NCBI RefSeq assembly: GCF_008386465.1
Contig: NZ_VUOD01000013.1
Location: 1 to 42,470, forward strand
Length of the DNA: 42,470 nucleotides
Direction: 5' to 3'
DNA from: Arenimonas fontis
GTDB taxonomy: Bacteria; Pseudomonadota; Gammaproteobacteria; Xanthomonadales; Xanthomonadaceae
This document shows positions 40,288 to 42,470 of the stretch, one piece after another. Position 1 is the first letter of the stretch. Each line of letters begins with the position of its first letter. A program made the position numbers and the translations under genes. The notes under the pieces are model-generated. The model had not been told where the DNA came from. It made no database searches and worked only from the letters and a program-made list of their open reading frames with translations.

Positions 40288-40841
40288 TCAGCGGGCGGTG
40301 TAGCCGCCGTCTATGACCAGCTCGGCGCCGGTGACGAACTTGCTCTCGTCGCTGGCCAGGTAGACCACGCCCCAGGCAATGTCGTCGGGTTCGCCCATGT
40401 GGCCCAGCGGATGCAGGCGGCCGACCTCGGCGCGGGCCGCGTCCAGGTCGGTGGCGCCGCTGGCCTTGAGGTGGTTTTCCACCATCGGCGTCCAGATGTA
40501 ACCCGGGTGCACCGAGTTCACCCGGATGCGGTCGGGGGCGTAGATCATGGCGTCGGTCTTGGCCATCAGCCGCACCGCGCCCTTGCTGGCGTGGTAGGCC
40601 GGCACGTCCGGCGCGCCGACCAGGCCGTAGATCGAGGACAGGTGGATGATGCTGCCGTGGCCGGCCCGTCGCATGTGCGGGATGGCGTGCTTGCTGCAGA
40701 ACAGGACGCCCTTGACGTTTACCGCCTGCACGCGGTCCCACTCTTCCTCGCTGATTCTTCCGCCAGCCGCTCGGCGCAGGCGCGGCCGATGCCGAGCGCG
40801 CCGCCGGTAACGATGCAGACCTTGCCTTTGACCCGGTTCAT
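40288..40841 (-). pseudogene. Short-chain dehydrogenase, disrupted by internal deletion and frameshift
   Basis: The start at 40841 reads MNRVKGKVCIVTGGALGIGR, then ACAERLAEE: a normal SDR NAD(P)-binding N-terminus (TGxxxGIG). Near 40753-40762 the frame shifts by one and the remaining part continues from the middle of the family (ISEEEWDRVQAVNVKG) to the end (GGYTAR). About 80-90 residues with the NNAG motif are missing between these points. Ser in IIHLSSIYG and Tyr/Lys in YHASKG are still present. The product cannot be functional. The parent would be about 250 residues, close to cyclopentanol or hydroxysteroid dehydrogenase-like SDRs. Confidence 0.88.
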
Positions 40842-40956
40842 GGCCGTGCTCCGGTCGGAGGGTGAGGGCAGTCTGCGTCCGGGAGGTGCCGGGAGCCTTG
40901 ATCGAGGTCAGGTTCGCGGGGGTGGCGGCGTCCGGGCCGTTCCGGCGCTGACACGA

Positions 40957-40987
40957 CGCCACCGGGCCCGAGGCCGGGCCGGTGGCG
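40957..40987. repeat. Long stem-loop upstream of dusA
   Basis: CGCCACCGG at 40957-40965 pairs with CCGGTGGCG at 40979-40987, and an inner CCCG/CGGG extends the stem with one bulged G. It lies in the 215-base region between the SDR pseudogene and dusA, which holds no gene I can support. It may be an old terminator or an operator; no T-run. Confidence 0.5.
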
Positions 40988-41056
40988 CTCCGCTCGCCGG
41001 TACCGCGGCGCCCGGAACACGCCTGCCTGGCGTCGGGGCATGGCATCCTAGGGCCC

Positions 41057-41152
41057 ATGCATACGACCCCCGACGCCGGCGCTGCCGGCCAGTGGCGCCT
41101 GTCGGTCGCCCCGATGATGGACTGGACAAACAAGAGACATTTTCCTCTGTAA
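41057..41152 (+). pseudogene. dusA: 5' fragment of dusA (tRNA-dihydrouridine synthase A)
   Basis: 31 codons. The first 24 read MHTTPDAGAAGQWRLSVAPM, then MDWT, the invariant start of DusA (RxSVAPMxDWTDRHCR). After Trp-Thr the expected Asp-Arg-His-Cys-Arg is replaced by NKRHFPL and a stop. DusA makes dihydrouridine at tRNA positions 20/20a. The break is abrupt and coincides with a drop to AT-rich sequence. The original full gene, if still present, must continue beyond the right end of the element. Confidence 0.9.
41108..41128 (+). other. Predicted attachment site (left junction) of a dusA integrative element
   Basis: The junction lies within the bases GCCCCGATGATGGACTGGAC, the conserved 5' end of dusA used by the dusA-associated integrases described for Proteobacteria (established knowledge). 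Upstream is normal chromosome; downstream GC falls from about 70-75% to about 50-58%, and no homology to dusA remains. Exact core ends cannot be set without the other junction. Confidence 0.7.
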
Positions 41153-41272
41153 AGCAATAACTTACGTTAATTATTTAGTTACATGTAGCATCCGTGGTGC
41201 ACCGTGGCTGTCGCAACCCCTGAGGAGGGCTCACTTGACCATTCCCTCTCCGCAGTGCGTAGTGAACCCAAC

Positions 41273-42001
41273 ATGGACAACAAGCGAACCGTCACGTTCC
41301 GGCTGAAGGGGAAGTTCCCCAGCGACTTCAGCATTGAACGAATCGCCCAGTACCTGCGCGCAGTCTCGGCACTTGTCGGGGACGACGGCGTGCGTCTTCA
41401 GAAAATTGGTCGAGGCAGCGTTAATTTCGCCCTAGAGGTCCCGGCTGCGAACTATCCCGCCGTCGTGTACCGGGTTGGGCAAGCCAAGAATCCACAATTA
41501 GCCGACCCAAAAGCAGCTAGGGCGGCAGTTGAACTTGAAACGATGATCAGCGCCGACCAGGTCACCGCTGAGGTACTCACAGGTCGCACGAAGATCCTCC
41601 AGTTGTTCGGCTACCGCATTGGGGATGCTGCGCGAATCGGGCCAATTGCGCAGTCCGTGTCGGTTCGTGGGCGGATCCTTGGCCTCGAAGGAAAAGATCG
41701 GACCAAACATGCTCGCGTTGAAGAGTACGGAACCCAGCGAGAGTTCTCGGCTGAAATCGTAGACGAAGGACTCGCGAACAGGCTCAAGGATTATCTTTGG
41801 GGCGAAGTGATTGAGCTAAAGGGGACCGCGCGGCTGATACGGACGGCCGAAGGGAGATGGGAGACCAAGTCGTTTCGTTTGGAAGCAATCGCCGAACTAG
41901 GTCTTGCTCGTTTCTCTGAAGTAGCCGCGAGCCTCCGAGGCGAGATGAACGAAGATGCCCTTACAGAGCTGGCGAGGCAGTTGGTCCGGGGGAGGCACTG
42001 A
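41273..42001 (+). CDS. Uncharacterised protein, first gene of a PIN-linked unit in the dusA element
   Basis: 242 residues from ATG 41273; GTG codons at 41204 and 41255 are alternative starts and no ribosome binding site decides. I do not recognise a named family. The N-terminal part (about 1-65) looks like strand-helix-strand with RLKGKFPSDFSIERIAQYLR and IGRGSVNFALEV. The C-terminal part (about 145-215) alternates strands and one helix, VRGRILGLEGKDRTKHARV and GEVIELKGTARLIRTAEGRW, consistent with a small OB-like barrel; that is inference. It overlaps the PIN gene by one base (TGATG), so both form one unit. GC and codon use (AGA, TTA, CTA) differ from the chromosome. Confidence 0.8.
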   Translation: MDNKRTVTFRLKGKFPSDFSIERIAQYLRAVSALVGDDGVRLQKIGRGSVNFALEVPAANYPAVVYRVGQAKNPQLADPKAARAAVELETMISADQVTAEVLTGRTKILQLFGYRIGDAARIGPIAQSVSVRGRILGLEGKDRTKHARVEEYGTQREFSAEIVDEGLANRLKDYLWGEVIELKGTARLIRTAEGRWETKSFRLEAIAELGLARFSEVAASLRGEMNEDALTELARQLVRGRH

Positions 42002-42369
42002 TGCGCGTCGTGGTAGATGCAAGCGTACTCATCTACTTGATCTACCCCAACGCGCCGGCCCCCAAGAATTCCACGGGAACTGGTGTGGTCACTCATTGTC
42101 GTGAGCGAATCGAAGGGCTTCTTGAAGCGCTCGATGAAGACGGGACAGAGGTCATTGTTCCTACGCCGGTGCTTTCTGAGCTTCTAATCAGGTCGTCTGG
42201 AAAAGAGCAGGAAGTCATCGCAATCTTGAGTGGCAAGCGGTCTGTGGTTGTCGCTGAGTTCGACGATCGTGCAGCGATAGAGAATGCGATGCTTCGGCGC
42301 TCGGCGGCTGCCAAGAAGCCATTCTTGCCGGCCAAAAAAGAAGGCCTCTTTTCAATTTCGAGTGGGTAA
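42001..42369 (+). CDS. PIN-domain nuclease, truncated by an insertion sequence
   Basis: 122 codons, of which about 114 are native. PIN domains are metal-dependent RNases, typical of VapC toxins. First acidic motif: VVVDASVLIYLI with Asp6. Second: VPTPVLSELLIR with Glu60. Then EFDDRAAIENAM around Asp88/89, typical of an about 150-residue PIN subfamily. The expected last block with the third and fourth acidic residues (FDRQI... and SDD type) is missing: from base 42343 on, the sequence encodes GLFSISSG and a stop that belong to the inserted element. The gene is thus probably inactive in this copy. It overlaps its partner gene by one base. Confidence 0.85.
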   Translation: MRVVVDASVLIYLIYPNAPAPKNSTGTGVVTHCRERIEGLLEALDEDGTEVIVPTPVLSELLIRSSGKEQEVIAILSGKRSVVVAEFDDRAAIENAMLRRSAAAKKPFLPAKKEGLFSISSG

Positions 42370-42470
42370 GCTGGACCTGAGCAGGTACGGGATCGGGTAT
42401 GACTGACAAGCTGTTTGAGGCTGCCTTGGGGGTCTCTCCGCCGTGGCAGGTGACGGGCGCGGACTTCGAT
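42343..42470 (+). mobile_element. Left end of an ISL3-family insertion sequence
   Basis: From 42343 the sequence GGCCTCTTTTCAATTTCGAG has the form of ISL3 terminal repeats (GG at the tip, then TCTTT and an A/T-rich part). It is directly preceded by AAAAAGAA (42335-42342), an A/T-rich octamer that would suit the 8-base target duplication of this family. The transposase gene starts 56 bases inside. The right end is outside the window, so repeat and duplication are not confirmed. Confidence 0.7.
42399..42470 (+). CDS. ISL3-family transposase, N-terminal fragment
   Basis: 24 codons to the window end: MTDKLFEAALGVSPPWQVTG, then ADFD. The pattern LFxAALGhxxPWxVxxxDFD is the typical N-terminus of ISL3 transposases. 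The zinc-finger, HTH and DDE parts must lie to the right. The gene is cut by the window edge, not by mutation. No strong ribosome binding site is visible (GGGATCGGGT upstream). Confidence 0.88.
   Translation, partial: MTDKLFEAALGVSPPWQVTGADFD

Follow-up and report, generated by a model that had tools for sequence, protein, structure and literature searches.

Near the right end of one contig of Arenimonas fontis, a copy of dusA begins normally and then breaks off, which raises the question of what has interrupted the gene and where the other side of the interruption lies. The window, which is the whole stretch of DNA analysed here (42,470 bp), is the entire contig C5, ending at position 42470, of a 2.63-Mb genome in 32 contigs. 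Its relevant features are collected in Table 1.

Table 1. Coordinates of the features at the dusA junction of the window
Feature	Position	Strand	Evidence
Chromosomal flank: short-chain dehydrogenase pseudogene divergent from dusA, and intergenic region	40288..41056	-	Syntenic with same-genus genome G042
Severed native dusA 5' end, 24 codons, MHTTPDAGAAGQWRLSVAPMMDWT	41057..41128	+	Direct reading; intact dusA with syntenic flank in G042
Putative attL core of 28 bp, identical to the attR core at C23:324036-324063	41100..41127	+	Repeat comparison
Prophage left end, with IS start from 42344; presumed continuation on C23 from 361926 down to 324036	41128..42470	+	att core, IS target duplication, PIN halves, G042 synteny
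Gene A, 242 aa, PHROG 19868 (unknown function), predicted C-terminal OB fold	41273..42001	+	PHROG match and structure model
PIN nuclease gene, N-terminal half; C-terminal half on C23, split by the IS	42001..42343	+	Pfam PIN, E=0.0024
8-bp IS target duplication, AAAAGAAG	42336..42343	+	Matched by the C23 end only, among the IS ends compared
Left end of ISL3-type insertion sequence, transposase start 42399	42344..42470	+	Repeat and family match

The severed dusA and the second junction

The dusA ATG lies at 41057, and by direct reading the 24 codons to 41128 are those of MHTTPDAGAAGQWRLSVAPMMDWT; past codon 24, the frame enters unrelated DNA and reaches a stop at 41150-41152. The sequence-only reading held that dusA is perfect up to codon 24, is split at the GATGATGGACTGGAC core and is then replaced by unrelated AT-richer DNA. 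Direct reading bears this out, as does a fall in G+C from 0.71 (window 1-41099) to 0.56 (41128-42343). The GATGATGGACTGGAC core, extended by script, becomes an exact 28-bp repeat, TGTCGGTCGCCCCGATGATGGACTGGAC, which occupies window 41100-41127 within dusA codons 15-24 and recurs in reverse orientation at C23:324036-324063. A rough calculation puts the probability of such a perfect 28-mer match arising by chance across 2 x 2.63 Mb at about 1e-10. The whole 2.63-Mb genome was searched with a 19-bp pattern covering part of the core, allowing up to 3 mismatches, and four sites were returned: the window, the C23 dusA (exact), C1:302844 (1 mismatch) and C28:162595 (3 mismatches). Since a control with the same pattern reversed gave 2 + 2 sites at up to 3 mismatches, weight was placed only on the exact core copies. 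The sequence at C1:302844 was read as nusA, and this site was taken as a chance match.

The uninterrupted state of the site is represented by G042, a genome of the same genus with intact dusA; a comparison of this kind had been named in the sequence-only reading. Seven genes of the left flank in the window have homologues next to the G042 dusA, at identities of 85% for the dehydrogenase and 46-77% for the six that follow it. The gene downstream of dusA on C23 likewise lies beside the G042 dusA (71%). In the window, the dehydrogenase gene (40288-40841) has an internal deletion of 220 bp by comparison with G042 and reads out of frame; this pseudogene is 216 bp from the dusA start.

A second core copy, a restored dusA frame and a tyrosine integrase had been foreseen further to the right. 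All of these were located together on C23, not by direct extension, as C5 ends at 42470. The C23 dusA is full-length with an open frame, and its match to Dus extends over the full length (E=1.6e-77). Besides it, the genome contains one full-length match to Dus, at 28% identity, which leaves the C23 copy as the only close full-length dusA. The objection that a normal dusA might stand elsewhere without a second junction thus does not apply, because this copy is itself the second junction. On C23, the core is preceded by 17 new in-frame codons with an ATG, MESGQEPRQAYNPADFR, followed by LSVAPMMDWTDR; it is through these codons, provided by the DNA adjoining the core, that the full-length dusA stays open. 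A crude scan upstream of this gene found no sigma-70-like promoter, and 'restored' is therefore claimed for the frame and not for expression.

The dusA ATG (C23:324115) and the integrase ATG, taken as the start (C23:324220, other strand), are 104 bp apart, and the two genes are divergent. The C23 tyrosine integrase matches Pfam PF00589 (E=8.5e-21) and the PHROG integrase family (E=7.3e-48), and its best-ranked phage record is Marinobacter phage AS1 (48%). It is 41% and 39% identical to the integrases of Pseudomonas phage H66 and Burkholderia phage BcepMigl, respectively, and in the alignment it keeps R-K-HxxR-H-Y, the catalytic residues of tyrosine recombinases. Both H66 and BcepMigl are listed, in section 10 of the report by Farrugia et al., among the phages with homologues of dusA-associated integrases (DAI) (PMC4482086). 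Judged by this alignment, the C23 integrase appears to be related to known DAIs.

The sections of Farrugia et al. 2015 drawn on here (PMC4482086) describe dusA-specific genomic islands and prophages carrying DAIs; of 258 variants, 213 are dusA-linked integrases, the att sites mapped in two strains measure 26-28 bp, and prophages make up 48 of the 94 surveyed dusA islands. They also describe a new dusA 5' end given by the element and excision demonstrated by PCR in the strains of that study. The present locus shares with this class an insertion in the dusA 5' end with 28-bp att repeats at both ends, an adjacent divergent tyrosine integrase with the catalytic residues, and an in-frame replacement of the dusA 5' end supplied by the element. 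It differs in the phage and the host, in a left end that is interrupted by an IS, and in that excision is here a prediction. By analogy with the class, the tyrosine integrase would recombine the phage attP with attB in the dusA core; after integration, the phage end encodes the first 17 dusA codons, as seen on C23, and excision would be expected to restore the native dusA.

All 60 family genomes searched gave a match to dusA, those in G007 and G014 being partial. Such integrase sequence lies upstream of dusA in 9 of 80 dusA loci of the genome_contigs set, always on the opposite strand, a count in which some integrase matches are partial and several loci reach less than 2.5 kb upstream. In 30 loci from the 60 family genomes, with flanks of at most 1.5 kb, integrase sequence was present in the locus of this genome and in L051 (partial). 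A similar integrase (E<=1e-60) occurs in 3 of the 149 genomes of the family sample, this one included, and none was found at this threshold in five other genomes of the same genus. The divergent integrase-dusA arrangement, with the frame open through the core, recurs in the other two of these three genomes (L203 and L204) and in two viral contigs (L068 and L070). dusA is in view in 4 of the 15 viral loci with a related integrase, this prophage included; L067 and L069, whose sequences start at the integrase or within it, contain no dusA.

The prophage body and the insertion sequence

The expectation that an island or prophage starts at dusA was met by tailed-phage genes on C23, which point to a prophage. 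These genes lie in a 37.9-kb stretch (324036 to 361926; 37,891 bp). Eight C23 frames scanned against PHROGs matched an integrase, an O-antigen acetylase, two tail proteins, a tape measure, a portal, a large terminase and a primase, the frames between the integrase and the contig end having been scanned in part. Further scans of C23 gave a transcriptional repressor and a ParB-like protein (Pfam ParB match just below the cut-off). The tailed-phage (Caudoviricetes) set of terminase, portal, tape measure and tail is thus present within one element, each as a PHROG match. Excluding the IS, and counting one core and one duplication, the prophage measures 1,244 + 37,891 - 28 - 8 = 39,099 bp. Given that the G+C of its left 1.2 kb is 0.56, against 0.68 in the rest, this piece could be a later addition to the phage.

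Two of these frames lie close to the ends of the C23 stretch. The ParB-like frame, of 731 aa (PHROG 7783, unknown function; C23:359095-361290, L012:1095-3290), is near the left end of the prophage and the PIN remnant. The frame matching the PHROG O-antigen acetylase, an acyltransferase-SGNH protein (C23:325430-327430, L010:7430-9430), adjoins the integrase and is a possible surface-modifying lysogenic conversion gene.

The large terminase was 61% identical to that of Stenotrophomonas phage S1, the best-ranked of 789 matching records among 50,697 phage records, a likeness that refers to the terminase alone. A closer counterpart is the viral record IMGVR_UViG_2891253994_000001 (39,912 bp), whose integrase is 100% identical to that of C23. 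In the 6,097 bases at its start, which were the part compared, the first 200 coincide with C23 from 322188; counted from there, its length of 39,912 bases would extend precisely to the C23 end. By that placement, the record overshoots attR into the host and is without the attL side seen in the window. By this comparison, the record is almost certainly this prophage, so that most of the prophage is already in IMG/VR.

The repetition of the IS explains why contig C5 stops inside it. The genome contains six copies of the final 121 bases of the window: the one on C5, three that close C4, C6 and C13, and two that lie 115 bases short of the ends of C10 and C29. The C10 copy is 99% identical and the others are exact. 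The right end of the IS closes C23, where a short match to PF01610 (ISL3 transposase), over the cut-off, lies at C23:362007-362099. ISL3 elements make 8-bp target duplications, and imperfect inverted ends with an 8-bp duplication are both found here, in keeping with an ISL3-type IS. When 6 left and 6 right IS ends were compared, AAAAGAAG was found to flank the IS only on the left side at C5 and the right side at C23. Some ends had no duplication partner among those compared (left, C29 and C6; right, C11 and C13), and the octamer CCTTTTTC lies next to two left and two right ends. Given the unpaired ends and the repeated CCTTTTTC, the duplications alone are no complete guide in this assembly. 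The halves of the PIN frame are in the same phase across the duplication, on C5 up to the IS and on C23 beyond it, and the C23 frame past the IS carries the DxQI and TDD motifs of the PIN C-terminal half. As no read or contig spans the IS and its interior is unassembled, we infer the join: the att core, the 8-bp duplication, the PIN halves and the G042 synteny together indicate that C5 and C23 are two ends of one element.

This ISL3-type IS, with near-identical ends, breaks the assembly at the ends of C1, C4, C6, C10, C11, C13, C23, C27, C29 and C30. The octamers beside it include AAAAGAAG, CCTTTTTC and AGAAAAAG, which suggests that the IS prefers A- or T-rich sites. The genome also has another, different ISL3-type transposase (C10:682-1404, L021), open over 428 aa, with a right end that resembles the contig ends of C3 and C29.

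Collectively, this evidence supports, with a probability of about 0.96, the reading that window 41100-41127 is the attL of a tailed-phage prophage of about 39.1 kb, of the dusA-specific class, in Arenimonas. The lower G+C of the left piece (0.56 vs 0.68 in the C23 prophage) would also suit a separate small island or tandem element in dusA, made up of the left 1.2 kb with gene A and the PIN gene, the C23 phage then being another element. However, no third core copy at up to 3 mismatches could be placed as an internal boundary, no integrase is encoded in the left piece, and related pairs of gene A and PIN are found in other phages and viral contigs. The PIN gene, moreover, runs from C5 to an apparent end on C23, which puts parts of one gene on both contigs, and we regard two separate elements as very improbable. 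Even harder to credit is an assembly artefact or chimera at 41128, which might be suspected from a short contig that ends in a repeat. The junction is 1.3 kb away from that end, its position is precisely that of the known dusA att core, a reciprocal junction exists on C23, and the flanks agree with those of G042. Nor would an assembly error be expected to produce a matching IS duplication, complementary PIN halves and agreement with the gene order of the relative.

Gene A and its PIN partner

The sequence-only reading had described the cargo as starting with an uncharacterised protein/PIN unit. The unit is real, but its PIN gene is interrupted by the IS. The PIN start overlaps the gene A stop by 1 nt, and an alternative upstream start of gene A (GTG, 41204) would give a protein of 265 aa. 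The mechanically called PIN frame (42001-42369) runs into the IS, and the true PIN half is 42001-42343. The match of this half to Pfam PIN (E=0.0024) is below the Pfam cut-off; relatives match more strongly, and the domain was found in 11 of 16 members at E<=0.01. In the alignment of the PIN proteins, the acidic residues D5 and E93 are invariant, and E59, D87, D120 and D139 are nearly so. In this genome, the conserved acidic residues lie on both sides of the IS, so this copy of PIN is probably inactive; the unit of gene A and PIN is here probably disabled by the IS.

The structure model of gene A has two domains, the C-terminal one an OB fold. Matches to solved structures cover residues 124-212 and hardly probe the N-terminal domain, which is not evidence of a new fold. 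Among viral structures, the match ranked best is to a DUF6575 protein (E=3.1e-9, TM 0.29 over 253 columns), which may be a distant relative of gene A. Among 17 members of the gene A family, no NCBIfam match was obtained, and the only Pfam match was a weak one to Tudor_2 (E=0.04). A PDB sequence search with the gene A and PIN profiles gave no match at the E-values set.

A PIN frame lies directly behind gene A in 34 of 36 loci from viral contigs, plasmids and genomes, a raw count, uncorrected for PIN frames that may follow unrelated genes by chance. As several loci are near-identical, the number of clusters at 90% identity (24) is also reported. The PIN profile was built from L082, L083 and L086, which match by construction; without these, the count is 31 of 33. 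The 36 loci (L082-L086 and L088-L118) comprise 23 viral contigs, 8 genomes from a phylum-wide search and 5 loci from earlier searches or annotated regions. The exceptions are L104, which ends at the gene A stop, and L097, in which gene A diverges beyond residue 218 from otherwise near-identical relatives, with no PIN match behind it. The latter stretch (L097:5001-6243, on a viral contig) may reflect either natural disruption of the pair or a chimera. In L085, from a Sinorhizobium plasmid, the PIN match is in two frames.

Single-protein patterns for close relatives of gene A matched 36 stretches in genome_contigs, none of which was confirmed, and 0 stretches in viral_contigs; a five-member gene A alignment yielded 23 viral loci from 85 pattern matches. 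Gene A was found in 2 of 274 genomes class-wide, one of them this genome, and in 10 of 398 genomes phylum-wide, including this one and a weak partial match (L119) that the pair count does not include. A homologous gene A (26%) with a PIN gene directly behind it, beside a CI repressor, is also carried by Pseudomonas phages Ostro and Pacha_bin_1, and the PIN gene of Ostro is annotated 'nuclease'. Their pairs differ from the present one in having no IS and in occupying another position in the phage map. A literature search with thin coverage of subscription journals found no paper describing gene A with PIN and, judged by titles and abstract openings, none on an Arenimonas prophage.

What the pair may do

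With less certainty than for the prophage, we infer that the pair is an undescribed phage-borne PIN effector module, either toxin-antitoxin-like or anti-phage, in which the PIN RNase would most likely be controlled by, or work with, gene A. Tentatively, and with nearly an even chance of being right, it can be regarded as an undescribed mobile two-gene effector system of Pseudomonadota, in which a nucleic-acid-binding OB-fold protein A would sense a cue or restrain the PIN ribonuclease, serving lysogen immunity or addiction. The IS appears to have broken the nuclease and spared its partner, a pattern that would follow if A is harmless by itself and the nuclease is the costly component.

An antitoxin-toxin gene order with a 1-nt overlap is typical of VapBC operons, whose VapB antitoxins are small and DNA-binding. 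The present pair has this order and overlap, and it resembles VapBC in its PIN-domain protein with conserved acidic residues. It differs in the upstream partner, which has 242 aa, no known DNA-binding domain and, in the model, a C-terminal OB fold. This large partner, unlike VapB, is one reason to consider a two-component anti-phage system that needs both proteins, and not a toxin-antitoxin pair; another is that one pair of gene A and PIN adjoins, by our own reading, an hsdS-like gene. A precedent is DS-5 of DefensePredictor, presented in the portion of its report drawn on here as a validated two-protein PIN system in which the PIN ribonuclease also needs a partner protein, the latter being unlikely to act as an antitoxin (PMC13092281). 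According to the same portion, the DS-5 partner has DUF5830 and an AcrIF4-like domain (PMC13092281), whereas no DUF5830 match was found in the 17 gene A members at E<=0.1, a comparison at the level of the domains described for DS-5. None of the PADLOC defence models matches the pair well, and its gene order and overlap also suit VapBC. We consider a system of the DS-5 kind possible, though somewhat short of an even chance; the sequence is compatible with toxin-antitoxin and with two-part defence and cannot tell between them.

The half-gene near the end of this contig shows how a prophage attachment site can be recognised from a gene fragment and its counterpart followed to a second contig. The window also supplies the attL side of a prophage that IMG/VR almost certainly already contains without that side. 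The prophage belongs to a known, described kind, and the pair of gene A and PIN raises its interest somewhat. This cargo merits further attention as a candidate defence or addiction module carried by phages, one that is open to testing.
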